NCBI RefSeq assembly: GCF_009827405.1
Contig: NZ_WTYY01000002.1
Coordinates: 558,001 to 622,000 of the forward strand
Reading direction: 5' to 3'
Source of the DNA: Alteraurantiacibacter aestuarii
GTDB lineage: Bacteria > Pseudomonadota > Alphaproteobacteria > Sphingomonadales > Sphingomonadaceae
DNA length: 64,000 nucleotides
Shown piece after piece: positions 26,691-47,063 of the stretch; positions within the stretch are counted from its first letter, which is position 1; every line of letters begins with the position of its first letter. Below the pieces are notes generated by a model. It searched no databases. It had not been told where the DNA came from and was given only the letters and a program-made list of their open reading frames with translations. Both the position numbers and the translations under genes were made by a program.

Positions 26691-26720
26691 AATATTACGC
26701 TTGACCAATTTAGTGTTATC
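26691..26720 (+). promoter_or_regulatory. dyad site e (regulon motif) upstream of the 26.8-kb gene
   Basis: Left arm AATATTAC, 14-base spacer containing TTGACC, right arm GTGTTATC. The geometry and the position of the TTGAC box match the four other sites described at 33.3, 36.8, 39.6 and 47.0 kb; the right arm is the least conserved of the set. A TAGCTT hexamer lies 16 bases after the TTGACC as a possible -10. Confidence 0.45.
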
Positions 26721-26814
26721 TGTAGCTTCGTCTCCAGGTTCTGGAGAACCATATCAATGGGAGAGTGTCAGCAAATAGCGCGCCTGTTTCAGGCGCGTTG
26801 TGAGGAGACTCTCG

Positions 26815-27273
26815 ATGCAGCGCAGTGCAATCTACCGATCCCTTCTCTCGCAAACCCTTCAGCATATGCCCAAAGCGGCGCGAAGCCCTATTCTCCGCAA
26901 GCATGGGATAGTGCTGGCTGGCGCGGTCGCGATCTGCAGTGCCGCATCACCCGCATTGGCAGAACGTGAACCCAGCACGAAACTGGTGCGCTGCGGTGAA
27001 GAGAGCTGCCTGCAGATTTCCGGTTATCGCGATGATCCGGCATCGATCGTAAGGCTCAACGGCGAAGTCGTGACCGCCGATGGCGGGCAGGACTGGCAAG
27101 TTCGCCTGCCGATCGAAACAGTGCGGCAATGGTCCGCCCCCAATGCGCGAACGATCGAAGTCTCCCTGCTTGACCCGGAGACGGCGCAAGTCACCTCTGC
27201 CAGCACCAGCCTTCCGATCGGCCTTCTGGGCGATATCTCCAGCCTCGCTTTCCTGGAAGTCAGGTCTCCGTAA
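26815..27273 (+). CDS. small secreted protein of unknown function
   Basis: 152 residues from the ATG preceded by GAGGAG; an upstream ATG five codons earlier lacks a ribosome site. The N-terminus is long and basic, followed by a hydrophobic stretch (IVLAGAVAICSAASPALA), so a signal peptide ending at ALA is likely. The mature part has two cysteines close together (LVRCGEESCLQISGY) and short beta-type segments. No family was recognised. It is preceded by the dyad motif at 26691, which suggests co-regulation with the guanidine cluster. Confidence 0.65.
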   Translation: MQRSAIYRSLLSQTLQHMPKAARSPILRKHGIVLAGAVAICSAASPALAEREPSTKLVRCGEESCLQISGYRDDPASIVRLNGEVVTADGGQDWQVRLPIETVRQWSAPNARTIEVSLLDPETAQVTSASTSLPIGLLGDISSLAFLEVRSP

Positions 27274-27377
27274 GCCCTTTTCTCCTGTAGTTGATCCTTG
27301 TCAGCCGACTGGCGCGTGCATATGTGATCCATAGCCGCCGCAGAGCGGTAATAAGTAAAACGCAGGAGAAAACGACG

Positions 27378-27704: not shown

Positions 27705-27981
27705 GACCTTCGGCCGGGCAAATGCCCGATTGCAGGTTTGAGCGAGGTTGAAAACTGGCTCTTCAAACTTCCATGGTCCGGCGCAACCCCGCCGGACTAT
27801 GGACGGTTTTGCCGCTCGCCGCCCGCCATCATAAGCGGGTCCGCGCGGGATATTGCGTTGCCTAACCGGCAAGGCGCAAATATGCTGGGCGAATGGAGCC
27901 ATTCGCAGCCAGAACGCGGTCGCTGGACCAAGATCACACCCTGAAAATTCACCATCTGCGCAGCTTGCTGGCAAGTGCCTC

Positions 27982-29648: not shown

Positions 29649-32051
29649 TCAGAACCTCACGCGCCCTTCGATGCCAACGGTACGCGGAGTAAGCACCGCC
29701 TGCCGATAGTAGCGCACCGCCACCCCATCATTCACGCCGATCCGCGACCGGTCATTGGCGACCGACACGACCGCATATTTGTCGAAGATGTTGTTGGCGA
29801 ACAGGCTGATACTGTAGTCATCCATGTCATAGGTGAGCGATGCGCGGTGGGTGACATAGCTGGGCAGCAGGTCGCCATAGGCACGGTCCCAGCCGATCCG
29901 TGAAACCACACTGCCGCGGTAGGTTGTGGTCCAGTTTGCGATCAGGTCGCCATCGGCAAGCGGTGTCATATAGGTCACGCCCAGACTGCCGGAATTCTTG
30001 GCAGAGCCCGGCAGGCGGTCACCTGACAAGGCATCAAGCTGGCTGAAGCGGTTGTCGTAATTATTGGGCGTCGTGCGAATGGTGATGATGCCCGGCACGT
30101 CCTCGGTCAGGATGGCGTCCGTGTAGGAATAGGTGCCCTGGATCGTCAGCTCGGGCGTGGGGCGCAGCTGGAAAGACGTCTCGAAGCCCTTCGACCTGGC
30201 CGAACCGCCATTCACCGTGATGCCCGTGGCACCGTAGAGCGTGGAGGAGTCGACCTGGATGCCCTGCCAGTCGATGTGGAACACGTTGAAGCTGAATGAC
30301 AGCAGCCGGTCGAACAACTGTCCGCGAATACCCAGTTCGATGTTCTTGGTCGTGTCCGGGCCATACTGCAATTCATCCGGCAGAGCGCAAATGATCTGCT
30401 GGCCGGGCGTGATGTCGGCCGGACACGGAGCAACGCGGTTCGGGCCGCCGATGCGATAGCCCTTGCTGTACGTGCCATAGACCATCAGATCCGGTGAGAA
30501 TTCATATGAGGTGTTGAGCTTCCACACCCAGCCATCCTTCGCCGCATCGCCACCGTTGGCAGGCAGGTCGTACGGGCTGAGCGGGTCACCCAGAACCGGC
30601 AGCGCAGCCGCCCCGGCAATGGTCGAGGTGTATTTGAAATAGCGCGCACCGGCAGTGACCTGCCATTCCGGCGTGACCTCCAGCGTGCTTTCACCGAAGA
30701 TCGCCTTCTCGGTCACCTTGGAAGTGATGTAGCTCACATATTCCAGAGCTTCCGGGTTGGTCGTGGGATCGACCCAGGGATGGTTCGGGATGCGTTCGGC
30801 GTAGTCGCTCTGATACTTGTTCTCGTTGTAAAAGCCGCCGAGAACCCAGCTGACCGGCCCGCCATGCGCCGATACGAGGCGCATTTCGGCATTGTTCTGG
30901 TCCCGGTTTCTCTGGGAGTCGGTGTAGCCGGCGAAAGCCGGGAACAGCTCATAATCGTAATCAAGATCAAGCAGCAGATCGGTCACGTCGGCGCTGTCGT
31001 GGAACTTGACCTTGGTATGGGCGACGGTGGCCACCACATCGAAGATGTCGGCGACATTGGCATTGAGTTCGGCGCTGAAGAGATGCGCGCTGCGCTCCAC
31101 CGGCTCGATAAAGCGGCTGGCGTTTTCATATCGTCCGGTTCCCAGAACGCCCGCACTGTTCGACTGCGCGCCATCGGTGGTAGTCCGCTGATAGGCATAG
31201 GTAAGCAGCAGTTGCAGGTCTTCGGTGGTCTGGAGCAGCATCTGGTTGCGCGAGGTGAAGGTGTGTTCGAAGTTCACATCATCTTCGCGGTGCAGGTTCG
31301 CTGCGTAACCGGCATCCGAAATGCTGGTGGGGCCGTCCGGCTGGGGCAGCGATACGCCCGGTTCATTGACCAGCAGCGGATAATCGATGAACCCCGCATT
31401 GGAATAATAGCCGGTGGCGGTTCGAAAGGCGATGTGATCGCGCACGATCGGCAGGTTGAGCATGCCGTCAGCCTGAAAGCCGATGTCACCGCTATGTGAC
31501 ATGAAATAGGTGCGGCCATGCGCAGCACCTTCGATATAGTCGGTGTTCGGACGGTTGGGGATATAGCGGATCGCGCCGGCCAGCGTACCCAGGCCATAGA
31601 GCGTACCCTGCGGCCCCAGCAGTGTCTCAACGCGAGCGATGTCGATCAGCTTGAAATCGTAATAGAGCGGAACTTCGCCAAGGTAGATGCCCAGCGCGTC
31701 ATCGTAAATCGCTCCGCCGTCGCCTGTGTCGGATGCGTTCAGGCCGCGCATCACCACTGTGCCGGTCGATCCCGCGCCGGTGTCCGACACCGTCAGGCCG
31801 GGGGTGAAGTCGGCAATGTCGCGCAGGTCATCGATGCGCTGGCGATCCATCTCTTCTGAACCGAGCGCGGAAATGTTGATCGGCGTGTCCATCAGCGTCG
31901 TGGTGCGCCTTGTGGCCGTGACGAAGATGGCATCATCGGTCACGGCTTCGGTCGTCGCCAGTTCCTGGGCAAAGGCGGGAATGGCGGTGATGGCGCTGGT
32001 GAACATAGTCGCCGAGAGCATCCCGAGTCTTAGTTTTGCGCAATTTCTCAT
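29649..32051 (-). CDS. TonB-dependent outer membrane receptor
   Basis: 800 residues with a signal peptide ending AFA/QEL. The TonB-box-like segment (DDAIFVTATRR) precedes a plug domain (DTPINISALGSEEMDRQRID, RGLNASDTG, RVETLLGPQGTLYGLGTLAG) and a beta-barrel ending in the aromatic terminus GRVRF. It should import a specific nutrient with TonB energy. Its end converges with the sulfotransferase; 189 bases upstream lies the end of the first hydroxylase gene in the same orientation, and that gap lacks the dyad motif. The substrate may be the compound handled by the neighbouring cluster. Confidence 0.9.
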   Translation of the reverse strand: MRNCAKLRLGMLSATMFTSAITAIPAFAQELATTEAVTDDAIFVTATRRTTTLMDTPINISALGSEEMDRQRIDDLRDIADFTPGLTVSDTGAGSTGTVVMRGLNASDTGDGGAIYDDALGIYLGEVPLYYDFKLIDIARVETLLGPQGTLYGLGTLAGAIRYIPNRPNTDYIEGAAHGRTYFMSHSGDIGFQADGMLNLPIVRDHIAFRTATGYYSNAGFIDYPLLVNEPGVSLPQPDGPTSISDAGYAANLHREDDVNFEHTFTSRNQMLLQTTEDLQLLLTYAYQRTTTDGAQSNSAGVLGTGRYENASRFIEPVERSAHLFSAELNANVADIFDVVATVAHTKVKFHDSADVTDLLLDLDYDYELFPAFAGYTDSQRNRDQNNAEMRLVSAHGGPVSWVLGGFYNENKYQSDYAERIPNHPWVDPTTNPEALEYVSYITSKVTEKAIFGESTLEVTPEWQVTAGARYFKYTSTIAGAAALPVLGDPLSPYDLPANGGDAAKDGWVWKLNTSYEFSPDLMVYGTYSKGYRIGGPNRVAPCPADITPGQQIICALPDELQYGPDTTKNIELGIRGQLFDRLLSFSFNVFHIDWQGIQVDSSTLYGATGITVNGGSARSKGFETSFQLRPTPELTIQGTYSYTDAILTEDVPGIITIRTTPNNYDNRFSQLDALSGDRLPGSAKNSGSLGVTYMTPLADGDLIANWTTTYRGSVVSRIGWDRAYGDLLPSYVTHRASLTYDMDDYSISLFANNIFDKYAVVSVANDRSRIGVNDGVAVRYYRQAVLTPRTVGIEGRVRF

Positions 32052-32240
32052 TGTCGTTAGTCCCTCATTTAGGTTGAATTCCCCCGCACCTCGGCACGCA
32101 TGCCGAAGTCTGACGAATTCTATTTGTGGATGCTTTGAGCTGCCCGCTTACCGTTATTCGGGAATTACGCTCTCGTTTATGTATCTGTTGACGCGATCCC
32201 GTCTGATTATTTTAATTTGCACTCCTATGGCTGGCACTTC

Positions 32241-33251
32241 TCAAGTATCGGCCGATGCCGACTTGCTCCTTTTTGCATTGTATTTCTGGATCAGCGGCTG
32301 AAACGGGAACAGGAACTGCTCGTAGATTGTCAGCCGCCTGCGCTCATCCTGGCCCACAATCTCGGACTCACCTTCACGATAGGTGCCGAAGATCCGGTCG
32401 AGCAGGATCAGCGAGTTACCGTAGTTGCAACGCGTGTCCTCATAGCTCAGCGCCGTGTGATGCAGGCTGTGATGCCGGATCGTGGTGAAGACGTATGAGT
32501 AAAACACTGGCGGGTCCGAGCGGACATTGGCGTGCGCGAAGACGGAAATCACGCTGAGCACGTTGATGCCGCAGAACAAGGCGACCGTATCGAAATCGAA
32601 CAGCGCAATAACGCTCAGGCTGATCAGGAAGAGTTCGATGGGATTGCCCACCGCCCCCTTCATCGCATTGAGCTGGGTAATGTGGTGGTGCGGCGCGTGG
32701 GTCAGCCAGGCCGGATACCAGTCGTGCATCAGCCGGTGCATCCAGTACTGACCGAACTCAATCAGGAAGACCACCAGGGCGACCTGCAACAGGAACGGCA
32801 TGGCCAAAACCCAGGGCGTGGCAATGCCGAGCGATTCCTTGAGCGAGACAAGCGGCTGATCGGCGAAGGTCTGCGCCGCCCACGAGATCGCGGTGGCCAT
32901 CAGAATGACGTAGAAAAGGTCGGTGGCGAATTCCTTGCGGTTCAGGCGCCAGCTCTTGTGGCGTTCGAGAACCTGCTCCAGGCCCAGCACGAAGAAGGTG
33001 ATGGCTGCGCTGGCGACGACGAGCGACCATTCGCTTTCGGTTATCGACCTGGGAAGAAGCATCCAGCTCAAGACGACAAACACAAGCGTCGCAGGTGGCA
33101 CCAGATTGATGAGGGTCCGCTTTAACGGACTTTCCCTGGCCTTGTCGGCCATGAGTTCGCTGGCTGAATTCTCGATGGAAGCCGACACAACCTCAGCAGC
33201 GCAGGCATCCTCAGGGGACGTATAGCTGGCCGACGGTCGATCCATAGACAA
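32241..33251 (-). CDS. membrane di-iron hydroxylase, sterol desaturase/fatty acid hydroxylase superfamily (copy 1)
   Basis: 336 residues with four or five hydrophobic segments and the superfamily's three His boxes: HRLMH at 172-176, HAPHHH at 185-190 and HHSLHH at 260-265, which bind two irons for O2-dependent hydroxylation at the inner membrane. A stretch FGQYWMHRxMHxWYPxWxTH and the tail EDTRCNYGNSLILLDRIFGT are shared with the second copy at 47.3 kb, so the two are paralogues. The dyad motif lies 90 bases upstream (33341-33370). The substrate is unknown. Confidence 0.85.
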   Translation of the reverse strand: MSMDRPSASYTSPEDACAAEVVSASIENSASELMADKARESPLKRTLINLVPPATLVFVVLSWMLLPRSITESEWSLVVASAAITFFVLGLEQVLERHKSWRLNRKEFATDLFYVILMATAISWAAQTFADQPLVSLKESLGIATPWVLAMPFLLQVALVVFLIEFGQYWMHRLMHDWYPAWLTHAPHHHITQLNAMKGAVGNPIELFLISLSVIALFDFDTVALFCGINVLSVISVFAHANVRSDPPVFYSYVFTTIRHHSLHHTALSYEDTRCNYGNSLILLDRIFGTYREGESEIVGQDERRRLTIYEQFLFPFQPLIQKYNAKRSKSASADT

Positions 33252-33340
33252 TCTCCATATTAGGCCGAAAGCCGGCCCAATCCTGCAGATCCTCTTCCCC
33301 TGTTTCTGTCGTTCTCTGTGGCGACAAGGGAAAATGTATA

Positions 33341-33370
33341 GATATTACGGAATGCGTCAAGAGTATTAAT
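33341..33370 (-). promoter_or_regulatory. dyad site a (regulon motif) upstream of hydroxylase copy 1
   Basis: On the plus strand: GATATTAC, 14 bases, GTATTAAT. On the gene's own strand the spacer holds TTGACG, followed 16 bases later by TACATT as a possible -10. The 26-base core TCTTGACG...TAATATCxATA differs at only four positions from site d in front of the paralogous hydroxylase. Confidence 0.65.
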
Positions 33371-33578
33371 CAGGCTTTTTGCTGCAACTGCGAATAAGCT
33401 TCGCAAGTGCGGGAATCATTGAATTTTTGGTCCTCTTTGGCGCTTCTTTGGCGCTGCATTCCGGCCATTCCGACATCCCCGTCATGCTCCCGCGTCATCC
33501 AGATGCAACAAGTGCAGGCGATGATTGTCGAATCATGCCCGGGGCCAGGAGACGCTGTCAGCTGGCCCCGGGGGTGCA

Positions 33579-34505
33579 TCATTTCCTGGTCCACCAGGTC
33601 AGTGTTTGAACATCATGCGCGCTGGTCCAGATGCCGTCCGGCGTGTAGCGCAGCGCGCCGCTGCCCTCGGCGGCGCCGACACGCGCGAGGATTTCCATCG
33701 TCTCCGCATCGATCTCCACGAATGTCTGGTCATCGGTCGTGCGCAGCCAGACCTTGCCGCCGCCAGTATCGATATCGCCCCATTTAAGGTTTTCGCCGAC
33801 GGTCACGCGATCGGTCACTGCGCGAGTGGCCGGATCGATCCGGGCAACCGTGCCTGCACCCTGCTCCTGCACCCAGACCGCGCCCTCGCCTGCGGCAAGG
33901 AAGCCGGGCATCTCGCCCAGCGATATCGTATCTGTCACGGTATTGGTTGCCGGATCGATCCGCTGAAGTGACTGCCCCTCTCCGCTAACGGCCCACACAA
34001 CATCGAAGCCAAATGCGAGATAGGTTGTACCGGGTGCGACATCGATTGAGGCGACCACCGTATTGGTTGCGGGATCGATCCGCGAGATCTTGCCCGCCGC
34101 CTGATCCGGAGCCCAGACGGATCCCGCGCCAGCGACGACGTTCTGCTCCCCGCTCGGCCCGATGCCGGCGGGAATGGTTGCGACCACCTGCGCCGTGACC
34201 GGATCGATCCGGTAGACTTCGCCACCTTCACAATTGCCGACCCACAGCGAGCCTTCGGCCATCGCCATCGTGCCGCAGGGGCGGGCAATCTCCACCGCGG
34301 CCAGCTTGCCGTCGGTGGACCATTGTTCAATGCGGCCATCGTTGGTGGTCCACACCGTATCCCCGTCAACCAGCAGGAAATCGGCAAAGCCGGGCACCGC
34401 CATGGCGTTTTCGGTGAAGGGAAGCGGGGTGGCTTCCGGCACCTCCGGCGTTTCCGAAGAGCACGCTGCCGTACACAGCAAGGCGAGAGCAACGATCTGT
34501 TTCAT
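33579..34505 (-). CDS. YVTN/NHL-type beta-propeller lipoprotein
   Basis: 308 residues from the ATG preceded by AGGAGAAC; the signal ends in lipobox TAAC. Five blades contain the repeat RIDPATNTVV or close variants at about 40-residue intervals, which also produces GGATCGATCC repeats every 120 bases in the DNA. Such propellers act as ligand-binding or scaffold proteins, or as lactonase-like enzymes. It is the last gene of a minus-strand operon after the two MBL-fold genes (31-base gap), so a periplasmic binding role for the same compound is inferred. Confidence 0.75.
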   Translation of the reverse strand: MKQIVALALLCTAACSSETPEVPEATPLPFTENAMAVPGFADFLLVDGDTVWTTNDGRIEQWSTDGKLAAVEIARPCGTMAMAEGSLWVGNCEGGEVYRIDPVTAQVVATIPAGIGPSGEQNVVAGAGSVWAPDQAAGKISRIDPATNTVVASIDVAPGTTYLAFGFDVVWAVSGEGQSLQRIDPATNTVTDTISLGEMPGFLAAGEGAVWVQEQGAGTVARIDPATRAVTDRVTVGENLKWGDIDTGGGKVWLRTTDDQTFVEIDAETMEILARVGAAEGSGALRYTPDGIWTSAHDVQTLTWWTRK

Positions 34506-34536
34506 TAAGGTTCTCCTGCGGCGAGCCTGCCTTGGC

Positions 34537-35550
34537 TCAACTGTAACGGTATGGATTGACATCGATGGTGGTCATGCTGCGCGTCTGATTGCAGAGGAAC
34601 ACGGTGCCGGTGAAATAGATGCCCGGCTCGGTAATCGTCTTGGCATAGTCATATGCCTCGCGAAGTTGCTGCAAGGTCATTTGCACCGGCGCCTCGTCGG
34701 GCTGATAGGTGACCCCGTAGGGGTAGTCCTCGCCGTCTTTGCTGATCTCCACATGGCAACCCATGACATGGGTCACGGGATGGGTATCAACAAACTCGAT
34801 CAGCCGCGTCATGCTGTCGAACCACGGTTCCCAGAAGCTGATGTAGCAGCGCCCGCGATAGAACATGTCGCCGGTGTAGAGGATCTGGGTGTAGCTGTCG
34901 TAATAGGCGAATTCCGAGACCACGTGGCCGGGCGAACCCCAGATAAGAATCTCGCGCCCGCCCAGGTCGAGCGTCACACGCTCCTCCGGAAAATTGGTCA
35001 TGCCCCAGAAGCCGACCATCTCCTCATGGGTCAGGCCCATATAGCGCGTGCGGGGACGGTCCGCGAACTGGTTGGTGGCGGCATAGTGGTCTGCGTGAAG
35101 GTGGCTGAAGGCGACCAGCAGTTCCATGCTGGCAGGGTCGCGGCCATTTCGCGCGCACCACTCGTCGATACATTCGTCGACGACGCCGCGCAGATCCCAG
35201 TCGTTGCGCAGCTGGGTAAAGCCTTCGTCGAGCAGGAGTACCCGGTCATTGCCGAAATAGAGCGGTGCGAACGGCGCTTCGTAGCTGTAGGCCTTGTTCT
35301 GCCTCAGAATGGCGGTGTGCGCATTGTACCAATGGACGTGAACGGGCGGATCGGTGTTGTCCATGCAGGACGACGAACCGCATATCCACCGGTCGGGGAA
35401 GCTTCCGGGTGCGGGCAGATTGCTCTTGAAATCGATGTCCTGGGCGCGCGTGGCGGCCATTGCTGCTTCGCTTCGGGTCGTCAGCGCTACGCCTGCCACC
35501 TGAGTGACGGCGATCGCCGCGTTGTATGAAATGAAGGCACGACGGTCCAT
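34537..35550 (-). CDS. MBL-fold metallohydrolase (intact metal site), probably exported
   Basis: 337 residues. The start MDRRAFISYNAAIAVTQVAG resembles a Tat-type signal. Metallo-beta-lactamase-fold ligands are present: SHLHADH with His150, His152, Asp154, His155; His209 in WGSPGHV; Asp228 in YTGDMF; His266 in GCH. The family hydrolyses esters, lactones, sulfates or amides. The neighbour upstream (17 bases) is a paralogue lacking the first motif; both share EAPFxxLxFGNDxxLLxDxG. The pair with a propeller lipoprotein forms an operon divergent from the guanidine/urea importer. Confidence 0.85.
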   Translation of the reverse strand: MDRRAFISYNAAIAVTQVAGVALTTRSEAAMAATRAQDIDFKSNLPAPGSFPDRWICGSSSCMDNTDPPVHVHWYNAHTAILRQNKAYSYEAPFAPLYFGNDRVLLLDEGFTQLRNDWDLRGVVDECIDEWCARNGRDPASMELLVAFSHLHADHYAATNQFADRPRTRYMGLTHEEMVGFWGMTNFPEERVTLDLGGREILIWGSPGHVVSEFAYYDSYTQILYTGDMFYRGRCYISFWEPWFDSMTRLIEFVDTHPVTHVMGCHVEISKDGEDYPYGVTYQPDEAPVQMTLQQLREAYDYAKTITEPGIYFTGTVFLCNQTRSMTTIDVNPYRYS

Positions 35551-35567
35551 GATGGTCCTTTCAGTCG

Positions 35568-36662: not shown

Positions 36663-36784
36663 CGAATACTCCGAGCAAGGCCACCAGATCGGCGGCGCGC
36701 GTAAGCCTTCTATGCAAGCCCTCCCAGGCGATTCGTGGTGCTGGCGCAACTGCTGCCGCCCACGCGAACAACTGCCTTCATATG

Positions 36785-36814
36785 GATATTACGAAAAATA
36801 ACAATGGTAATACA
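36785..36814. promoter_or_regulatory. dyad site b (regulon motif) in the MBL operon/importer divergent region
   Basis: GATATTAC, 14 bases, GTAATACA. It lies 60 bases before the importer gene at 36874 and 123 bases before the MBL operon start, so one site could control both directions. On the minus strand the register that holds TTGAC elsewhere reads TTGTTA, followed 16 bases later by TATGAA. Confidence 0.65.
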
Positions 36815-37959: not shown

Positions 37960-38001
37960 CCTGCTGAAACTGGCTGACAGCAAGATCCTGATCGGAATGT
38001 T

Positions 38002-38817
38002 ATGCGCTGGGTGAACCGTAACATAGGGCGCCGCAACAGCCTGCTCCTCGGCGCCATTCCGATCCTGGTCCTGTTGATGGTTTATCTGGTGGTCTCTGCT
38101 GATCGCCACGCGATCAATCCCAGCGACAAGATTTTGCCCATTCCCGGCGCCATGGTGCAGGCCATGTGGGGGCTGGTGTTTGAACCGGATCGCCTGTCTG
38201 GCAGGCTCCTGTTCTGGGCAGACACGTTCGCCAGTCTGCAGCGTCTTGGCCTGGGGATAGCCATCTCCACGCTGGCCGCTCTGATCGTGGGGATATTGCT
38301 GGGCATACTGCCACCTGTCCGCGCGACCTTTTCCACGCTGGTGACCGGCATCGCAGTTATCCCGCCAATCGCATTGCTGCCGATACTGTTCATTGCCTTC
38401 GGACTTGGGGAGACCGCCAAGGTGGCGCTGATCGTCATCGGCGTGGCGCCCTTCATGATCCGCGACATTGCTGCCCATATGGCCGCCTTGCCCAGAGAGC
38501 AGATCGTCAAGGCGCAGACACTGGGCGCAAGCACCTGGCAACTGATCCTGCGGGTCGCCCTGCCCCAGGCCATGCCGCGGCTGATCCAGGCAGTGCGCCT
38601 GTCGCTTGGTCCGGCGTGGGTCTTCCTGATCTCGGCAGAGGCGATCGCCTCCGATATCGGGCTTGGATATCGCATCTTCCTGGTCCGCCGCTATCTGGCG
38701 ATGGACGTGATCCTGCCTTACGTGGCGTGGATAGCGCTGCTCGCCGCGACGACGGACATTCTTCTGAACTGGTCCAGTCGCCGCCTGTTCCGCTGGGCTC
38801 ATGGAGCAAACCATTGA
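38002..38817 (+). CDS. ABC transporter permease, urea-carboxylase-associated type
   Basis: 271 residues with about six membrane helices and the permease EAA-like loop AAHMAALPREQIVKAQTLGA, which docks the ATPase. The sequence is of the taurine/nitrate/sulfonate (SsuC-like) importer group. It starts 42 bases after the binding protein gene, with only a weak GGA ribosome site, and its stop overlaps the ATPase start by four bases. Confidence 0.88.
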   Translation: MRWVNRNIGRRNSLLLGAIPILVLLMVYLVVSADRHAINPSDKILPIPGAMVQAMWGLVFEPDRLSGRLLFWADTFASLQRLGLGIAISTLAALIVGILLGILPPVRATFSTLVTGIAVIPPIALLPILFIAFGLGETAKVALIVIGVAPFMIRDIAAHMAALPREQIVKAQTLGASTWQLILRVALPQAMPRLIQAVRLSLGPAWVFLISAEAIASDIGLGYRIFLVRRYLAMDVILPYVAWIALLAATTDILLNWSSRRLFRWAHGANH

Positions 38818-39632
38818 ACGCGCTGCTCAGCCTCCAGAACGTTTGGGTCGAATATGGCGACAAGGTGGTCCTGGAGCGGATCAACCTCAATATCGAGGCG
38901 GGCTCCTTTGTCTCGATCATTGGCCCGTCAGGAGCAGGCAAGAGCAGTCTGCTGCGCGTGCTGCTGGGGCAGGAAGCGCCGACCAAGGGGACCATCCTGC
39001 TCAACGATGAGCCGCTCAAACCCCAATGTGAGCCTGACCGCGGCGTGGTGTTCCAGCGGTATTCGGTGTTTTCCCACCTGACGGTTCTGGGCAACACCGT
39101 GTTCGGTCTCGAATGCGCGCAGGCTCCGCTGACTGCACGATTGTTCGGCGCGCGCCGCCGGGCTGCCGAAGCAGAGGCGGAAGAGATGCTGGCGGCTGTT
39201 GGCCTGAGCGACAACCTGCATCTTTACCCGGCCCAGATGTCTGGCGGTATGCAACAGCGTCTGGCAATTGCCCAAGCGCTGATCAAGCGGCCCAGACTCC
39301 TGCTGCTGGACGAGCCGTTTGGCGCGCTTGATCCCGGCATCAGGGCCGACATGCACGCGCTGATAACGCGCTTGTGGAGCGATTATTCGCTGACCGTCGT
39401 GATGGTAACCCACGATATCGGCGAGGCATTCTCGCTCGGCACGCGCGTTTTGACACTGGACAAGGCGCGCCATGATCCGCACGCTCCGCACCGTTACGGT
39501 GCCACCGTCGTTTACGACCTTCCGCTCAAGAAGCAGGCCACCGTCGAGGCCGGAACTTGCGTTGACAATGGCGCTGAGAACGGCCCGGAAGTCAACTGCA
39601 TTATTACAGTTGACGAAACTCGTAATAATTGA
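38814..39632 (+). CDS. ABC transporter ATPase, urea-carboxylase-associated type
   Basis: 272 residues from a TTG at 38814 that overlaps the permease stop (TTGA) and has GGAG seven bases upstream; translation then begins (M)NALLSLQNVWVEYGDKVVLE. It shows Walker A GPSGAGKSS, Q-loop VFQRYS, signature MSGGMQQRLAIAQAL, Walker B LLLLDEPFGALD and H-loop THD. The last 11 codons overlap dyad site c, so the promoter of the regulator lies inside this gene. Confidence 0.9.
   Translation: MNALLSLQNVWVEYGDKVVLERINLNIEAGSFVSIIGPSGAGKSSLLRVLLGQEAPTKGTILLNDEPLKPQCEPDRGVVFQRYSVFSHLTVLGNTVFGLECAQAPLTARLFGARRRAAEAEAEEMLAAVGLSDNLHLYPAQMSGGMQQRLAIAQALIKRPRLLLLDEPFGALDPGIRADMHALITRLWSDYSLTVVMVTHDIGEAFSLGTRVLTLDKARHDPHAPHRYGATVVYDLPLKKQATVEAGTCVDNGAENGPEVNCIITVDETRNN
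39600..39629 (+). promoter_or_regulatory. dyad site c (regulon motif) upstream of the NikR-like regulator
   Basis: ATTATTAC and GTAATAAT form a perfect eight-base inverted repeat separated by 14 bases containing TTGACG. It ends 16 bases before the regulator's ATG and overlaps the end of the ATPase gene. It is the most symmetrical of the five sites, as expected for an autoregulatory operator. Confidence 0.7.
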
Positions 39633-39645
39633 GAGGAGGAACAAT

Positions 39646-40155
39646 ATGGCTACCGAACCCACCAGTCTCGCCAGGCTCAGCATGAGTCTTCCGGCAGAGC
39701 TTTCCCGACAGCTTGACGTGATGGTTGAAGAGCGCGGCCTGCCGTCCCGTTCGCAGCTGATCGCCGAGCTGATCCGTCATGCGCTGGCGGACCATGAGGC
39801 ACTGACCCGCCCCAAAGGCACGCTGGCCGGGACCATTACGCTGGTTTATCGCGGAGACCGCGCAGGCGTGCGGCAGCAACTCGCCACAACCCAGCTTCAC
39901 TATCTGAAGGAAGTCATCTCCTCGCAGCACGTGTTTCTCGAGGACGACCAGTCACTCGAAGTTCTGCTGGTACAGGGTCCGGCTGTCCGGCTGGAGGCTC
40001 TGTGCGATGCCTTGCGCGGAATTCGCGGCGTCCATCAGCTGCAACTCGTCACCACGACCGCCCTGCTGCCGCCGCTGCACGAGCAGGATCAGGCAACCGG
40101 CAAGGATGACGAGGCCCCGGGCAGGGACCGATCCCGCAAGGGCATGGCTGCGTGA
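39646..40155 (+). CDS. NikR-like ribbon-helix-helix transcriptional regulator lacking the nickel ligands
   Basis: 169 residues after a GAGGAGG ribosome site. Residues 8-50 form a ribbon-helix-helix domain (RLSMSLPAELSRQLDVMVEE, RSQLIAELIRHAL); residues 60-137 align by eye with the ACT-like sensor domain of NikR. Where E. coli NikR has nickel ligands His76, His87, His89 and Cys95, this protein has Leu84, His95, Phe97 and Ser103, so a NikR-type nickel site is not possible. It probably senses another ligand such as guanidine, and probably binds the dyad sites. It overlaps the next gene by four bases (GTGA). Confidence 0.8.
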   Translation: MATEPTSLARLSMSLPAELSRQLDVMVEERGLPSRSQLIAELIRHALADHEALTRPKGTLAGTITLVYRGDRAGVRQQLATTQLHYLKEVISSQHVFLEDDQSLEVLLVQGPAVRLEALCDALRGIRGVHQLQLVTTTALLPPLHEQDQATGKDDEAPGRDRSRKGMAA

Positions 40156-40973
40156 CAGCACTCGCCGATCCCAAAGCGGCACGCGATCATGCCCGCGCGA
40201 TGGGGGGCACGGTCGTCGAAGCCATGCCCGCGCTGCCCCCCGTGGCCGACGACCTTCCCGCCGATGTCGATTGCGATGATCTGCTGTGGGAAGAGACTGT
40301 CGCGGCAGGCGGTTATGCCACGCGCAGGCTGGCGCGCGGCACCCGGCTGCGGATGATCGACCTGGCAGGCGATGCATGCGCCTCGCTGCTGGTCTTCAAC
40401 GCCGAAATGCCGAGTGAGCGCCTGAATGTCGCGGATACGGTCAAGGTCCAGTGGAATGCCTATCTCGGCGCGGGCAAGCTGTTACTGTCCGACATGGGCC
40501 GCGTGTTGCTGAGCATCGTGGAAGACGACGCACAAACCCACGACACTTTTTGCGGCACCTCCAACGCTGCGACCAACGCAGCCAAATATGGCGAAGGCAG
40601 TAACAGCGGCGCCTGCCCCAACGGCCGCGACCGCCTGCTGCTCGGGTCCGCCAAGCACGGGCTGCAACGGCGCGATGTCCACCCTTGCGTCAACCTGTTC
40701 AAAGGCACGCGGATCGAAGCGGACGGGACCATCGTTCCGCTTGTCGGCCCCTTCGCTGCCGGGCGCACCGTGCTGCTGCGCGCCGAAATGGACGTGATTA
40801 TCGTGATCGCCAATTGCCCGCACGTCCTGGATCCGCGCGAGGCGTGGACCGTCACGCCCCTGCGCCTTTCTGCCTGGCGCGGCGCCGTGACAGGCGAAGA
40901 CGATCCCATTCGCACCGCAACGCCGGAGGGGTTGCGTGCCTTCCAGAACGTTGAAGACTATTTCCGCCGCTAA
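40152..40973 (+). CDS. DUF1989 protein, larger subunit of a carboxyguanidine deiminase-type pair
   Basis: 273 residues from a GTG overlapping the regulator stop. It belongs to the urea-carboxylase-associated DUF1989 family: GYATRRLARGTRLRMIDLAG, ASLLVFNAE, HDTFCGTSNA with a conserved Cys, and ACPNGRDR. Two such proteins form carboxyguanidine deiminase in characterised guanidine-degrading bacteria, converting carboxyguanidine to allophanate and ammonia. The neighbouring smaller paralogue would complete the heteromer. Confidence 0.85.
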   Translation: MTALADPKAARDHARAMGGTVVEAMPALPPVADDLPADVDCDDLLWEETVAAGGYATRRLARGTRLRMIDLAGDACASLLVFNAEMPSERLNVADTVKVQWNAYLGAGKLLLSDMGRVLLSIVEDDAQTHDTFCGTSNAATNAAKYGEGSNSGACPNGRDRLLLGSAKHGLQRRDVHPCVNLFKGTRIEADGTIVPLVGPFAAGRTVLLRAEMDVIIVIANCPHVLDPREAWTVTPLRLSAWRGAVTGEDDPIRTATPEGLRAFQNVEDYFRR

Positions 40974-40993
40974 GTAGGAAGACTGACCCAGAA

Positions 40994-41629
40994 ATGACTG
41001 CCGCACCGGGATTACAAGGGCTTTCAGACACTGTTATTCATGACGAGGTCGTGCCCGCCCGGGCACCTTGGCTTTATCATATCGCCGCCGGTCAATCCCT
41101 CCGCATTGTCGATCTGGAAGGCAATCAGGCGGTCGACTTCCTGCTCTATTGCGCCGCCGACGATGCCGAACGCTACAGCGCGCAGGACACCGTTGCGATG
41201 CAGGGCAATCTGTTCCTGCGCAAGGGATCGGTGCTGCGGTCGAACGAAGGGCGCGCGATGATGACCATCACCGCCACTTCGGTCGAGTATCACGACACAA
41301 TTGGCGGGGCTTGCTCCTGCGAATCCAATATGCTGCGCTACGGCCATCACACCAAGTCGCAACATGCCTGCGTCGAGAACTTCCTCGAAGCCAACCTGAC
41401 TGAGGGGCGCAGCAAGCGGGACATTGTCTCCAACATCAATTTCTTCATGAATGTGCCGGTCATGGAAGACGGTTCGCTGGGGATCGTCGATGGCATTTCG
41501 GCCCCGGGGCTTACGGTCGATCTGCGCGCCGATATGGATGTGATCGTCGTGGTGTCGAATTGCCCGCAGATCAACAATCCCTGCAACGCCTTCAATCCAA
41601 CCAAAGTGCGGATGATCGTCACGGCATGA
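40994..41629 (+). CDS. DUF1989 protein, smaller subunit of a carboxyguanidine deiminase-type pair
   Basis: 211 residues, 20 bases after its larger paralogue. Family signatures are QSLRIVDLEGNQAVDFLLYC, GSVLRSNEGRAMMTI and GGACSCESNMLRYG, with a cysteine cluster that may bind metal, and VVVSNCPQINNPCNAFNP. It is expected to act with the preceding protein on carboxyguanidine. Its stop overlaps the carboxylase start by four bases (ATGA), so the enzymes are probably made in fixed proportion. Confidence 0.87.
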   Translation: MTAAPGLQGLSDTVIHDEVVPARAPWLYHIAAGQSLRIVDLEGNQAVDFLLYCAADDAERYSAQDTVAMQGNLFLRKGSVLRSNEGRAMMTITATSVEYHDTIGGACSCESNMLRYGHHTKSQHACVENFLEANLTEGRSKRDIVSNINFFMNVPVMEDGSLGIVDGISAPGLTVDLRADMDVIVVVSNCPQINNPCNAFNPTKVRMIVTA

Positions 41630-44600
41630 GTATAACGACGGTACTGGTCGCAAACCGGGGGGCAATCGCCACCCGGATTATCCGCACTCTGCGCAGCATG
41701 GGCCTGCGTTCGGTGGCCGTTTATTCCGAGGCCGATGCCGGTTCGCTGCATGTGTCGCAGGCGGATGTGGCCGTTTGCATCGGTCCCGCACCGGCGACAG
41801 AGAGCTATCTTGATGTCGCTGCGATCATCAATGCGGCGAGGGAAACCGGCGCCGGCTTCATCCACCCCGGCTATGGCTTTCTGGCCGAGAATGCCGAATT
41901 TGCCGAGGCCTGCGAAGCCGCCGGCATCGTGTTCGTTGGCCCCACGCCCGAGAACATGCGCACCTTTGGCCTCAAGCACAGCGCCCGCGCGCTGGCGGCT
42001 GAACACGGCGTGGCACTCGCACCCGGCACGGGACTGTTGACCGATGCCGACAACGCCGCACAGGCAGCCAATGAAATCGGCTATCCGGTAATCCTGAAAG
42101 CCACCGCTGGCGGCGGCGGCATCGGCATGCGGATCTGCGAGGACGAAGCCGCCGTGCGCGAAGGCTTCGCCGGTGTCGCGCGTCTCGGCGCCGGAAATTT
42201 CGGCGATGCAGGCGTGTTCCTCGAACGGTATATTTCCCGCGCGCGCCATATCGAAGTGCAGATTTTCGGCGACGGGGATGGCCGCATAATGCCGCTTGGC
42301 GAACGCGATTGCTCATTGCAGCGACGCAATCAGAAGGTGGTCGAGGAAGCCCCCGCCCCGCAACTCTCCCCGGCAGTGCGCGAAGAGCTGATCGCTGCGG
42401 CTGTCCGCCTTGGCGAGGCTGCCCGGTATCGCTCTGCAGGCACTGTCGAGTTCCTGTTCGATGCCGAACGTCAGGAATTCTTCTTTCTCGAAATGAACAC
42501 ACGGCTTCAGGTCGAGCACGGCGTCACTGAGGAAGTGATGCGCATCGATCTGGTCGAGTGGATGGTCCGCGGGGCGACGGGTGACTATTCGTTCCTGAAT
42601 GGCGAACCGCCGGAGCCGCGCGGGCACTCTATGCAGGTTCGCCTGTATGCCGAAGATCCTGCACTCGACTATCGCCCGACCACCGGCACGCTCGTCGCAC
42701 TCCATTTCCCCGAATCCATCCGTGCGGAGACCTGGTGCGAGGCCGGCAGTGCGATCAGCGCATGGTACGATCCGATGATCGCCAAGCTGATCGTTCACGG
42801 CGAAACGCGGGACGCAGCCAAATTGGCGATGCAGGCGGCGCTCGACGAAAGTCACCTGGACGGTATCGAGACCAACCTGCGCTGGCTGCGCGACGTTGTG
42901 CGCAATGAGGATTTCGCGTCAGGGCAGGTTTCCACCAAGCTGCTCGAGACGATCGAATATAATCCCCGCAGCGTCCGGGTGGTCTCCGGCGGCACTGCCA
43001 CCACCGTGCAGGACTGGCCCGGCCGGCAGGGCCTGTGGGCGATCGGCGTGCCCCCCTCCGGTCCGATGGATGATCGCTCCTTCCGGATCGGCAATCAGCG
43101 GCTCGGCAATCCGGAGGATGCCGCCGGGCTGGAGGTTACCTTCACCGGACCGACCCTGTATTTCAACGCGCCAGCACGGATATGCCTTGCCGGCGCCGAT
43201 TTCGGTGCCCGACTGGACGGCGAGCCAGTTGAACGGGGCATCCCTGTTGACATCGGCGCGGGTCAGACACTCTCGCTCGGGCGCGTTTCTGGCGGCGGCA
43301 TGCGTGGTTATATCCTGTTTGCAGGCGGGCTTGAGGTTCCGCCCTATCTCGGCAGCCGCAGCACCTTCGAGCTCGGCCAGTTCGGCGGCCATGCGGCGCG
43401 GCGACTGCTCGCCGGTGACACGCTTCACCTGGCGGCAAACGACATTGGCACGCCCGCACCCGTGGAAGCGGCGCCGGACTTCGGCAATCGCTGGACGCTG
43501 CGAGTCCTCTACGGCCCGCACGGCGCGCCGGACTTCTTCACTGAGGAGGATATAGACGCGATCCTCAAGGCAGAATGGCAGGTGCACTACAACAGCAACC
43601 GCACCGGTGTGCGGCTGGTCGGGCCAAAGCCGCAATGGGCGCGCACCGACGGCGGCGAAGCTGGCCTGCATCCGTCGAACATCCACGACAATCCATACGC
43701 CATCGGCGCGGTCGACTTCACCGGCGACATGCCGATCATCCTTGGCCCGGACGGCCCGTCGCTCGGCGGTTTCGTCTGTCCCTTCGTGGTGATCGCGGCG
43801 GACCGCTGGAAGATCGGGCAGCTCGCCCCCGGCAACCGCCTGCGTTTCGTACCCGTCACATATGATGATGCCATTGCGGCCGACCGCGCACCGTTGACGC
43901 AGATTACGCAGGAGCCTGCCGCCGCTGCGCCGGAACGCGCGATCGCCGCGCTTTCGCCGATCCTTGCCGACACACCGGCGCAGGGACTGCGTCCGCGGAC
44001 CGTCTATCGCCAGCAGGGCGACCGCAATATCCTGGTTGAATACGGGCCCATCGTGCTCGACATCGAACTGCGCATCCGCGTGCATGCGCTGATGACCGTG
44101 CTGGAAAGCAAGGCCCTGCCGGGAGTGATCGACATCGTGCCCGGCATACGCTCGCTGCAACTCCATTTCGACGATGACGCGCTCGACCAGCGGGGCGCAC
44201 TTGCCGCGCTGATGGAGGCCGAGAACGAGCTTGGCGATCTGGAGGATTTCACCATCCCGTCGCGGATCGTCCATCTTCCACTCAGCTGGCGCGATCCGGC
44301 CACCATCGAGACGATAGAGAAGTACATGGCGGCGGTGCGTGATGACGCGCCGTGGTGTCCGGATAATATCGAGTTCATCCGCCGCATAAACGGCCTGACA
44401 GACGCCGATGCGGTGGAGGATGTGATCTTCGATGCCAGCTATCTGGTGATGGGCCTGGGTGACGTTTATCTGGGCGCGCCGGTGGCCACTCCGGTCGATC
44501 CACGTCACCGGCTGGTCACCACCAAGTACAATCCCGCCCGCACCTGGACCCCGCCCAATGTCGTGGGGATCGGCGGCGCATACATGTGTATCTACGGCAT

Positions 44601-45225
44601 GGAAGGCCCCGGCGGTTACCAGCTGTTCGGTCGCACCATCCAGGTGTGGAACACCTATCGCCAGACCGACGCCTTCGTGGAGGGCAAGCCGTGGCTGCTG
44701 CGCTTCTTCGACCAGATCCGTTTTTTCAAGGTGAGCGCGGAAGAGCTGGTCGAATGGCGCAGGGACTTTCCCAATGGCCGCCGGTCGATAGAGGTCGAGC
44801 ACTCGGAATTCCGCCTGGCGGACTATCGCGCCTTCCTGGCCGAAAACGCCGATTCAATCTCGGCCTTCCAGAAACAGCGTCAGGCCGCTTTCGATGATGA
44901 ACGCGCGGAATGGCAGCGCAACGGCGAATTTGATCGCATTTCGGAACTCGCCGATGATCCGGCAGCAGGCACTCTTGCCGCCCCCACGATCGAGGTGCCC
45001 GAAGGTGCCGACGTGATCGAAGCGCCCTTCGGGGGAAGCGTCTGGAAGTTGCTGGTTGCCGAAGGTGACGAGGTCCAGGCGGGCCAGATCATCGCAGTAA
45101 TTGAGGCAATGAAGATGGAATGCCCACTGGAAAGCCCCGGCAGCGGGACAATTTCCGCGCTCTACATCAGTGAACGCCAATCGATAGAACCGGGCGCTCC
45201 GCTGCTGGCGCTGACGCGCTCATGA
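41626..45225 (+). CDS. biotin-dependent urea/guanidine carboxylase
   Basis: 1199 residues. Residues 1-450 are a biotin carboxylase (VLVANRGAIATRIIRTLRSM, ATP-grasp loop KATAGGGGIGMR, FLEMNTRLQVEHGVTE). About 460-1050 are the KipA/KipI-type carboxyltransferase halves (SGPMDDRSFRIGNQRLGNPE, GIGGAYMCIYGMEGPGGYQL). The C-terminal biotinyl domain has AMKM with Lys1163. It carboxylates urea to allophanate or guanidine to carboxyguanidine. The adjacent DUF1989 pair favours guanidine, but the residue separating the two classes cannot be assigned without an alignment. It overlaps both neighbours by four bases. Confidence 0.93.
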   Translation: MSITTVLVANRGAIATRIIRTLRSMGLRSVAVYSEADAGSLHVSQADVAVCIGPAPATESYLDVAAIINAARETGAGFIHPGYGFLAENAEFAEACEAAGIVFVGPTPENMRTFGLKHSARALAAEHGVALAPGTGLLTDADNAAQAANEIGYPVILKATAGGGGIGMRICEDEAAVREGFAGVARLGAGNFGDAGVFLERYISRARHIEVQIFGDGDGRIMPLGERDCSLQRRNQKVVEEAPAPQLSPAVREELIAAAVRLGEAARYRSAGTVEFLFDAERQEFFFLEMNTRLQVEHGVTEEVMRIDLVEWMVRGATGDYSFLNGEPPEPRGHSMQVRLYAEDPALDYRPTTGTLVALHFPESIRAETWCEAGSAISAWYDPMIAKLIVHGETRDAAKLAMQAALDESHLDGIETNLRWLRDVVRNEDFASGQVSTKLLETIEYNPRSVRVVSGGTATTVQDWPGRQGLWAIGVPPSGPMDDRSFRIGNQRLGNPEDAAGLEVTFTGPTLYFNAPARICLAGADFGARLDGEPVERGIPVDIGAGQTLSLGRVSGGGMRGYILFAGGLEVPPYLGSRSTFELGQFGGHAARRLLAGDTLHLAANDIGTPAPVEAAPDFGNRWTLRVLYGPHGAPDFFTEEDIDAILKAEWQVHYNSNRTGVRLVGPKPQWARTDGGEAGLHPSNIHDNPYAIGAVDFTGDMPIILGPDGPSLGGFVCPFVVIAADRWKIGQLAPGNRLRFVPVTYDDAIAADRAPLTQITQEPAAAAPERAIAALSPILADTPAQGLRPRTVYRQQGDRNILVEYGPIVLDIELRIRVHALMTVLESKALPGVIDIVPGIRSLQLHFDDDALDQRGALAALMEAENELGDLEDFTIPSRIVHLPLSWRDPATIETIEKYMAAVRDDAPWCPDNIEFIRRINGLTDADAVEDVIFDASYLVMGLGDVYLGAPVATPVDPRHRLVTTKYNPARTWTPPNVVGIGGAYMCIYGMEGPGGYQLFGRTIQVWNTYRQTDAFVEGKPWLLRFFDQIRFFKVSAEELVEWRRDFPNGRRSIEVEHSEFRLADYRAFLAENADSISAFQKQRQAAFDDERAEWQRNGEFDRISELADDPAAGTLAAPTIEVPEGADVIEAPFGGSVWKLLVAEGDEVQAGQIIAVIEAMKMECPLESPGSGTISALYISERQSIEPGAPLLALTRS

Positions 45226-46988
45226 CGGCACTGGACCGGCAAAGCGCAGGCGCGATCGCGGCACAGGTAAATGGCGGCAAGACCACTGCGCTCGCCGTGG
45301 CGGAAGAAGTTCTTGCCCGCCTTTGCGCCTATGATGCGGTGCAGCCGCGGATCTGGATCAGCCGCGCCGCGCCAGAGGACATTCTCGCCGCCGCGCGCGC
45401 CGTGGACGCGCGTATTGCGCTGAAAGAACACCTCCCGCTTGCGGGCGTGCCCTTTGCCATCAAGGACAATATCGACGCGGAAGGGTTCGAGACGACTGCA
45501 GCCTGCCCGGCCTTCGCCTATACGCCAGCCGCATCTGCCAGCGTGGTCCACAAGCTGGTGGAAGCTGGCGCGATCTGCATTGGCAAGACCAATCTGGACC
45601 AGTTTGCCACCGGACTTGTCGGCGTGCGCAGCCCATATGGCATTCCGCGCAATGCCTATAACCTCGCTTATGTCAGCGGCGGATCAAGCTCGGGTTCGGC
45701 GGTCGCCGTCGCGGCGGGCCTCGTCGCATTCTCGCTGGGAACCGATACGGCGGGATCGGGCCGGGTGCCTGCTGCCTTCAACCACCTGGTCGGACTGAAG
45801 CCGAGCAAGGGGCGGTGGAGCACGCGCGGCCTGGTCCCCGCCTGCCGGACGCTGGATTGCATCACCGTATTTGCCGACAGCGTGGCAGACGCGCGCCTGG
45901 TGGACAATGTAATCGCCGGTTTCGATCCGGCGGATCCCTTCTCGAAGCCGCTATCCGACCGCCCGCTCCAGCCCCGGCGCATCGGCGTGCCGCGCCGCGA
46001 TCAGCGCGCATGGTTTGGCGACAGCCAGTCCGAATATCTCTACGATGCGGCGCTCACCCGGCTGGGCAAAGATGCGCAGATCGTCGAGCTGGATATCGCG
46101 CCGCTGGATGAGGCGGCGAGCCTGCTGTACAGCGGCCCGTGGGTGGCCGAGCGAACCGCAGCCATCGCAGAGCTGCTGGGCAGCGACCCGGATGCCATCG
46201 ATGAAACTGTCCGCCGCGTGGTTGCGCCCGGAGCAGACATCACGGCGGTGGAATTGTTCAACGGCATCTACCGTCTCGCCGAACTGCAGCGCCATGCGGA
46301 TGAGATGTGGCAGCAGGTCGACATGCTGGCCTTTCCCACCACCGGTACCACGTACCGGGTGGCGGAATTGCTGGCCAGCCCGATCGCGCTGAACAGCAAT
46401 CTTGGGCGCTATACAAATTTCGTCAACCTGCTCGACATGGCCGCAATTGCCGTGCCGACCGGCGTCCGCAGCAACGGCACCGGCTTTGGCATAACGCTGA
46501 TCGGCCCGGCCAGTACCGACATCGGCCTGATGTCGGCAGCCGAAACCTACCTTGCGGCGGCGGACCTGCCCGCTCCGCCCCCACTCGATTTGGAGGGAAG
46601 AATGGAAAGCGTGAAACTTGCTGTCGTTGGCGCGCACCTGAAGGACATGCCGCTGCACTGGCAGCTGACTTCGCGCGATGCACGCTTCATCGGTGCGTTC
46701 CAGACCGCGCCCACCTACCGCCTTTACGCCATGGCCGACAGCGTGCCGGCCAAACCGGCGCTTGTCCACAGCGAGGACGGGTCCGGTATCGCAGTCGAAG
46801 TCTATGAGCTCGACGTTGCCGCCTTCGGAAGTTTCGTTGCCGAGGTTCCTGCGCCACTGGCCATTGGAACGGTCACGCTGGCCGATGGCAGCAGCGTGAA
46901 AGGCTTCGTCGCGGAGCCTCGCGCGACGGTTGGTGCAGAGGATATCACCGATCTTGGCGGGTGGCGGGCCTACATTGACAGGGGCTGA
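45222..46988 (+). CDS. atzF: allophanate hydrolase, amidase signature family
   Basis: 588 residues. The N-terminal amidase domain has a Ser-cisSer-Lys triad: Lys81 in FAIKDNID, Ser155 in VSGGSSSGSA, Ser179 in GTDTAGSGR. The C-terminal domain (about 465-588; VKLAVVGAHLKDMPLHWQLT, GAFQTAPTYRLYAM) is specific to allophanate hydrolases with the decarboxylating extension. It converts allophanate to two ammonia and two CO2, the last step of the pathway. Last gene of the operon. Confidence 0.94.
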   Translation: MTALDRQSAGAIAAQVNGGKTTALAVAEEVLARLCAYDAVQPRIWISRAAPEDILAAARAVDARIALKEHLPLAGVPFAIKDNIDAEGFETTAACPAFAYTPAASASVVHKLVEAGAICIGKTNLDQFATGLVGVRSPYGIPRNAYNLAYVSGGSSSGSAVAVAAGLVAFSLGTDTAGSGRVPAAFNHLVGLKPSKGRWSTRGLVPACRTLDCITVFADSVADARLVDNVIAGFDPADPFSKPLSDRPLQPRRIGVPRRDQRAWFGDSQSEYLYDAALTRLGKDAQIVELDIAPLDEAASLLYSGPWVAERTAAIAELLGSDPDAIDETVRRVVAPGADITAVELFNGIYRLAELQRHADEMWQQVDMLAFPTTGTTYRVAELLASPIALNSNLGRYTNFVNLLDMAAIAVPTGVRSNGTGFGITLIGPASTDIGLMSAAETYLAAADLPAPPPLDLEGRMESVKLAVVGAHLKDMPLHWQLTSRDARFIGAFQTAPTYRLYAMADSVPAKPALVHSEDGSGIAVEVYELDVAAFGSFVAEVPAPLAIGTVTLADGSSVKGFVAEPRATVGAEDITDLGGWRAYIDRG

Positions 46989-47033
46989 GGCCGTGCCTGA
47001 CGCTGCCGGGCGCAATTTTGGCACTTTAAGTTC

Positions 47034-47063
47034 GTTATTACTCTTGACGCGTTCGTTAATATC
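47034..47063 (+). promoter_or_regulatory. dyad site d (regulon motif) upstream of hydroxylase copy 2
   Basis: GTTATTAC, 14 bases including TTGACG, then TTAATATC. A TAGCCT lies 16 bases after the TTGACG. Its core is nearly identical to site a of the paralogous hydroxylase on the other side of the cluster. The gene start is about 200 bases downstream, leaving a long leader with no other visible element. Confidence 0.6.

Follow-up and report, generated by a model that had tools for sequence, protein, structure and literature searches.

The stretch of Alteraurantiacibacter aestuarii DNA analysed here (64,000 nucleotides, contig NZ_WTYY01000002.1, positions 558,001 to 622,000; hereafter the window) carries a guanidine catabolic gene cluster in which a promoter dyad, TATTAC-N14-GTAATA, recurs around the gene of a NikR-like ribbon-helix-helix regulator that we call REG. 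The dyads are very probably the landing sites of REG, a NikR relative without a nickel site, and a single operator set under this regulator is strongly supported. Comparison of sequences among relatives establishes the operator set and its tie to REG, as well as the promoter layout and the loss of nickel ligands. The whole explanation, according to which REG, having lost its nickel site, would control a guanidine catabolic regulon as a ligand-released repressor, has in our estimate a probability of about 0.72.

Dyads and genes of the guanidine cluster

Allowing up to two mismatches, the window contains exactly five dyads, starting at 26693 (two mismatches), 33343 (one), 36787 (none), 39602 (none) and 47036 (one). 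Their coordinates, and the promoter elements found with them, are as follows, MBL standing for metallo-beta-lactamase-fold and FAH1 and FAH2 for the two hydroxylases of the cluster:

26693..26718, plus strand: site a, 2 mismatches; -35 TTGACC at 26701-26706, -10 TAGCTT at 26723-26728
33343..33368, minus strand: site b, 1 mismatch, faces FAH1; -35 TTGACG at 33360-33355, -10 TACATT at 33338-33333
36787..36812, no strand: site c, perfect dyad that separates the MBL operon from the divergent importer operon
39602..39627, plus strand: site d, perfect dyad ahead of REG, which overlaps the last codons of the ATPase gene (stop at 39632)
47036..47061, plus strand: site e, 1 mismatch, faces FAH2; -35 TTGACG at 47044-47049, -10 TAGCCT at 47066-47071

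A preliminary description of this DNA had reported five equally spaced dyads; all five exist with the N14 spacer, each starting two bases to the right of where it had been placed. The description had a single perfect copy before the regulator: the copy at 39602 is indeed perfect, and so is a second one at 36787. Its site letters a, c and d were inconsistent with its own list of coordinates. Its account of the promoter elements was borne out, since TTGAC lies at an identical offset in four sites and points to the downstream gene, the site at 36787 has TTGTTA on the minus strand, and the two hydroxylase sites (33343 on the minus strand and 47036) agree at 22 of 26 positions.

In 100 dinucleotide shuffles of the window, the mean number of dyads at the same tolerance was 0.08 and the maximum 1. 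We further collected 80 named loci, the best 80 of 261 relatives of REG (all but one titled Sphingomonadales; 1.29 Mb in total), in which exact arms occur 139 times at a spacer of 14 and never at 18 other spacers from 6 to 24. Shuffles and spacer comparison together rule out a chance origin of the dyads. The genes of the cluster are:

26815..27273, plus strand: small secreted open reading frame (ORF) behind site a; start not settled; no Pfam match
29649..32051, minus strand: TonB-dependent receptor behind hydroxylase 1 (Pfam PF00593, PF07715)
32241..33245, minus strand: hydroxylase 1 (FAH1), FA_hydroxylase family (Pfam PF04116)
33579..34562, minus strand: lipoprotein-like beta-propeller ORF (NHL; Pfam DUF6923, DUF5074)
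34537..35550, minus strand: MBL protein 2 (MBL2; Pfam PF00753)
35568..36749, minus strand: MBL protein 1 (MBL1; Pfam PF00753); start not settled
36874..37959, plus strand: ABC substrate-binding protein (SBP), TIGR03427 family (NCBIfam, above cut-off)
38002..38817, plus strand: ABC permease (NCBIfam profile search)
38790..39632, plus strand: ABC ATPase (Pfam PF00005); start not settled
39646..40155, plus strand: REG, NikR-like ribbon-helix-helix regulator without full nickel site (Pfam NikR_C, RHH_1)
40152..40973, plus strand: UAAP1, by family a carboxyguanidine deiminase subunit (TIGR03425)
40994..41629, plus strand: UAAP2, by family a carboxyguanidine deiminase subunit (TIGR03424)
41626..45225, plus strand: guanidine carboxylase, annotated as urea carboxylase family (TIGR02712; D at the equivalents of K. 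lactis 1330 and 1584)
45222..46988, plus strand: allophanate hydrolase (TIGR02713)
47267..48259, plus strand: hydroxylase 2 (FAH2), FA_hydroxylase family (Pfam PF04116)

REG thus stands first in a row that continues with UAAP1, UAAP2, the carboxylase and allophanate hydrolase. According to an excerpt of a 2024 paper (PMC11410670), Asp at the equivalents of K. lactis positions 1330 and 1584 marks guanidine rather than urea carboxylases; the window enzyme has D at both, and across the 80 named loci the first signature position is D in 78, N in 0 and not found in 2. What had been described as a guanidine/urea operon is therefore assigned to guanidine, not urea, by the carboxylase signature, and two UAAP/CgdAB subunits and allophanate hydrolase adjoin the carboxylase. 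No Rfam family reached its gathering score in the window and none appeared at E ≤ 5 in 32000-48500, so that riboswitch control of the cluster was not found at the sensitivity of Rfam. A guanidine riboswitch was likewise absent from 16 of 17 REG-bearing loci scanned, the exception being genome G675.

Operators and REG across relatives

The placement of the dyad in the named loci was counted at up to one mismatch within 450 bp upstream of each gene. It precedes the importer gene in 80 of 80 cases, hydroxylase 1 in 43 of 43, MBL1 in 32 of 45, hydroxylase 2 in 14 of 27 and REG in 79 of its 99 copies (two per locus in 19 loci); before the receptor (21 of 65) and the propeller gene (12 of 58) its frequency is modest. 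No dyad was found at this tolerance before the operon-internal genes, be it the carboxylase (0/79), UAAP1 (0/80), UAAP2 (0/79), the permease (0/80), the ATPase (0/80), allophanate hydrolase (0/56) or MBL2 (0/52), and random windows of the same loci contained one in 312 of 4,000 cases. Because the counts are high upstream of leading genes and zero at internal ones, the dyads stand at operon heads. The loci with doubled REG (19 of 80, for example L142, L143, L145 and L146; also L077, L078, L082 and L110) are mostly from Novosphingobium, the copies lying about 3 kb apart, the second near the importer, with dyads near each.

The position of the dyad relative to the promoter is equally regular. TTGAC occurs at offset 8 in 145 of 241 sites (five from the window and 236 from the 80 loci). 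We split the TTGAC sites by sequence (the ATPase stop codon) rather than by gene model into 60 of junction type and 83 others. In 78 of the 83 unique non-junction sites exactly 16 bases separate the hexamer from TANNNT, each of the other spacings between 12 and 21 giving 0 or 1, and the -10 elements of window sites a, b and e fit this pattern. At intergenic promoters the -35 thus lies within the dyad, and four bases remain between the end of the dyad and the -10, which to judge from the layout is the position of a repressor.

Presence of the dyad follows presence of the regulator. In an order-level search of 396 genomes, 313 of them in the host family, a REG orthologue (E < 1e-60) was found in 45 family genomes; the exact dyad occurs in 45 of these 45, whereas it occurs in 5 of the 268 family genomes without REG (Fisher p 3.5e-49, kinship ignored). 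The five are G394, G071, G136, G152 and G241, and at the exact dyad of G394, the sole copy of the five inspected, none of 19 window proteins matched within about 1 kb. Five family genomes with only a distant NikR-like protein have no exact dyad. Outside the family the exact dyad was found in 12 of 83 genomes, where the reversed control pattern is frequent too. One genome outside the family, G054, lacks an exact TATTAC dyad; each of its two REG copies (58% and 56%) is preceded by TGTTAC-N14-GTAACA (L105, L106).

The preliminary description had named commonness of the motif near unrelated genes as evidence to look for against a regulon. Such a distribution was not found: by our own count from the site list, all 36 exact sites in 20 complete regulator-bearing relatives lie in the cluster, as do 57 of the 71 sites at up to one mismatch; the reversed control pattern occurred 37 times in these 20 genomes.

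A NikR relative with altered nickel ligands

REG matches PF08753 (NikR_C, E 4.7e-20) and PF01402 (RHH_1, E 2.7e-6), both above cut-off, and among solved structures P. horikoshii NikR is the closest (E 1.1e-21). It stays below the cut-offs of all curated NikR equivalog models of NCBIfam (91.4 vs 105, 53.8 vs 175.45 and 59.3 vs 83 bits). An excerpt of PMC7055735 names four nickel ligands of E. coli NikR; in the corresponding columns window REG reads LHFS and the named relatives xHFS (80/80), whereas ordinary NikRs read HHHC (13/13); the columns are QHQV in Acinetobacter, RHHT in G675, YHHT in G1084 and RHHT in G1093. With three of the four ligands replaced, REG should not hold nickel in the known manner, to judge by these residues. 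Ligand loss alone is not a marker of REG, because five distant NikR-like family proteins (L118 to L122) also have incomplete ligand sets (HQIL, HHIS, HTVS, HNAS and HART) with no dyad within 3 kb; they are possibly another repurposed NikR group. A structure prediction of REG from the single sequence had a mean predicted local distance difference test (pLDDT) score of 57.4 and was not used. One contig titled Candidatus Poribacteria (L179) encodes a REG 84% identical to that of the window and is most likely a mis-binned sphingomonad contig.

REG shares the ribbon-helix-helix and NikR_C domains with the NikR proteins of E. coli, H. pylori and P. horikoshii. The operators are also alike in geometry, TATTA-N16-TAATA against the GTATGA-N16-TCATAC of NikR given in PMC7055735, each an inverted repeat with about N16 between 5-base arms. 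The likeness ends at the replaced ligands and at the targets, which are guanidine catabolic and not nickel genes. Excerpts of PMC545781 give a predicted delta-proteobacterial NikR signal, GTGTTAC-N13/14-GTAACAC, which has the TTAC…GTAA core and the spacing of the REG dyad and contains the arms seen in G054 exactly; its targets are nickel transporters, unlike the REG set. The recognition strand reads RLGVS in G054, which has TGTTAC arms, and RITIS in G1093, which has TATGAC arms like the GTATGA of E. coli. With one lineage each, this is only a hint that recognition residues covary with the operator arms.

Distant relatives, proposed regulation and rival explanations

A class-level search of 385 genomes gave three matches, namely the window genome, G019 and G675 (REG 44% identical). 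In 20 kb of G675 the sole dyad found (N14, one mismatch) separates REG from the divergent importer. The same cluster has a guanidine-II riboswitch upstream of UAAP1 (L207:16530-16579), so that RNA and protein control elements occur together. In Asticcacaulis excentricus the carboxylase cluster is complete, and an exact dyad precedes REG by 45 bp. In Acinetobacter sp. NCu2D-2 a REG of 35% identity adjoins allophanate hydrolase, the carboxylase gene lying upstream; there is a one-mismatch dyad before REG and an exact dyad before the ABC permease, and this REG and its dyad are located on a plasmid. Regulator and dyad are thus paired in other orders and in a gammaproteobacterium as well. The SMR gene at the Acinetobacter locus matches Qac models best and SugE lower, none above cut-off, and we do not claim that it encodes a guanidine exporter. 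At the phylum level (398 genomes), 44 genomes matched at E ≤ 1e-15, comprising five family members, four others at E < 1e-48 (G1047, G675, G1084 and G1093) and 35 at E ≥ 2.4e-25. G1047 has an exact dyad before REG and a full cluster, and in G1084 (L244 4372-10056) an exact dyad precedes a row of importer, creatininase-family, type III glutamine synthetase and REG genes. From the 35 we took 13, whose NikRs are the ordinary ones compared above, and found no dyad at up to one mismatch in up to 20 kb around any of them.

Losses of the regulator point the same way. REG is absent from 5 of 51 UAAP2-bearing genomes of the order, and in these five neither a dyad at up to one mismatch nor a guanidine riboswitch was found in 19.9 kb around UAAP2. 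One of the five, G239, keeps the importer, deiminase, carboxylase, allophanate hydrolase, MBL1 and receptor genes, and its sole two-mismatch match lies at the 3′ end of MBL1. In L114, L115, L116 and L117 carboxyguanidine deiminase genes have a TonB receptor nearby, without REG, dyad or known guanidine riboswitch.

From this body of comparisons we infer, with decreasing assurance, that REG binds directly, that it represses and does not activate, and what its inducer is. REG very probably binds the dyad, where it would grip the two half-sites in NikR fashion; the sites include one ahead of REG itself and one that the MBL operon shares with the divergent importer operon. It is probably a repressor: bound over the -35 it would probably block RNA polymerase, because the -35 lies inside the dyad and the -10 just after it. 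The inducer is somewhat more probably guanidine or a close relative than anything else, to judge from the genes; guanidine is the favourite ligand, and the main alternative is an alkylguanidine or an intermediate of the pathway. The altered NikR_C domain would bind guanidine or something closely derived from it, upon which REG would leave the DNA and the importer, carboxyguanidine deiminase, guanidine carboxylase, allophanate hydrolase, both membrane hydroxylases, the TonB receptor and the MBL proteins would be produced jointly. Inclusion of the receptor, the hydroxylases and the MBL proteins suggests a larger guanidino substrate that would be processed to guanidine.

Several observations count against this explanation. 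In G1093 (L245 9804-12579) the best dyad between REG and a creatininase-family gene is TATGAC-N14-GTCATA, and in both G1084 and G1093 REG is linked to a creatininase-family protein and type III glutamine synthetase, not to the carboxylase. Because these linked enzymes differ, the REG clade need not sense guanidine everywhere, and the arrangement is possibly a second regulon type. Twenty of the 99 REG copies have no dyad at up to one mismatch within 450 bp. The -10 is found in 0 of the 60 junction-type sites before REG, and these dyads overlap the end of the ATPase gene, so that their conservation may be partly coding; dyads upstream of REG genes without a preceding ATPase gene, in Asticcacaulis, Acinetobacter and G675, speak against the coding explanation. 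The host assembly, 2.24 Mb and 69.7% complete, has both exact copies in the window, as well as 4 of 5 copies at up to one mismatch and 5 of 13 at up to two; by mismatch count alone site a is therefore indistinguishable from background. Site a is the weakest member of the set, with the same promoter layout as b and e. None of 10 relatives with the secreted-ORF gene has an upstream dyad at up to three mismatches, which leaves site a unsupported as a conserved operator. Of the single operator set originally described, the importer, the MBL operon, the regulator and the hydroxylases are thus upheld by comparison, and the secreted ORF at 26.8 kb is not.

A nickel regulon under an ordinary, nickel-responsive NikR is a highly improbable reading. 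The NikR_C domain of REG, its matches to the NCBIfam NikR models, sub-cut-off throughout, and the operator geometry would fit, but ordinary nickel control is ruled out on the ligand residues, and no nickel transporter or nickel enzyme was recognised with Pfam or NCBIfam among the genes at the sites. It is also improbable, if a little less so, that another regulator binds the dyad and REG merely shares the cluster. Co-occurrence of linked genes cannot alone prove contact; yet dyad and REG stay together despite differing gene orders in Asticcacaulis, G675, G1084 and Acinetobacter, no dyad at up to one mismatch is found around UAAP2 in G239, which keeps the cluster without REG, the geometry is that of NikR operators, and the variant recognition residues of G054 and G1093 go with other arms, in one lineage each.

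Activation by REG would be compatible with site c, which lies between two divergent operons and at which the importer promoter was not identified. We regard it as unlikely, since a dyad that takes in the -35 and comes within four bases of the -10 (78 of 83 sites) should exclude polymerase when bound, and an excerpt of PMC7055735 describes E. coli Ni-NikR as inhibiting nickel importer genes. A substantial minority of our credence goes to a REG that binds the dyads but answers to a signal other than guanidine, be it urea, an alkylguanidine, a pathway intermediate (carboxyguanidine or allophanate), a larger guanidino compound entering via the TonB receptor, or nitrogen status. The co-regulated TonB receptor, two hydroxylases and periplasmic MBL proteins would be needless for free guanidine alone, and the same clade accompanies creatininase-family genes in G1084 and G1093. 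Against this, the core conserved target is the importer with the guanidine carboxylase pathway, and G675 has its guanidine-II riboswitch in the same cluster.

REG is a candidate protein controller of guanidine catabolism, for which the sensors known so far are RNA switches, and its exact operators occur in cultured species. Excerpts of PMC12186494 describe carboxylase operons under guanidine-I/II riboswitches with the same importer, deiminase, carboxylase and allophanate hydrolase set; REG loci have a protein operator set instead. The Vreelandella boliviensis methylguanidine operon, as presented in part of PMC12508155, is likewise a guanidine carboxylase operon extended by an oxygenase, which frees guanidine; that enzyme is 2-oxoglutarate dependent and riboswitch controlled, whereas the window has two FA_hydroxylase-family membrane proteins. 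Consistent with the earlier claim that the regulon is undescribed, we found no description of NikR/CopG-family control of guanidine or urea carboxylase genes, or of a sphingomonad NikR regulon, in openly licensed PMC papers. REG looks like a metal sensor turned metabolite sensor with its operator geometry retained, and the regulon ties two membrane hydroxylases, a TonB receptor and MBL proteins to guanidine catabolism. Tentatively, and at slightly less than even odds, REG may represent a guanidine-sensing transcription factor of an undescribed kind, its nickel pocket rebuilt for guanidinium or an alkylguanidine, which in Alpha- and Gammaproteobacteria would replace guanidine riboswitches (in one genome stand beside one) and whose clade relatives would serve other small amidine-like compounds.

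Two further observations concern the neighbourhood of the cluster. A TPR-sulfotransferase gene (window 27853-29547) is a constant neighbour of the cluster in relatives, with a site upstream in just 1 of 8. A two-mismatch dyad, AATAAC-N14-GTAATA, recurs about 200 bp ahead of the homologue of a small ORF (ORF27381) in 5 of 11 matches (L081:13338, L083:6479, L084:6363, L085:13464 and L086:13388) and is possibly a degenerate operator.

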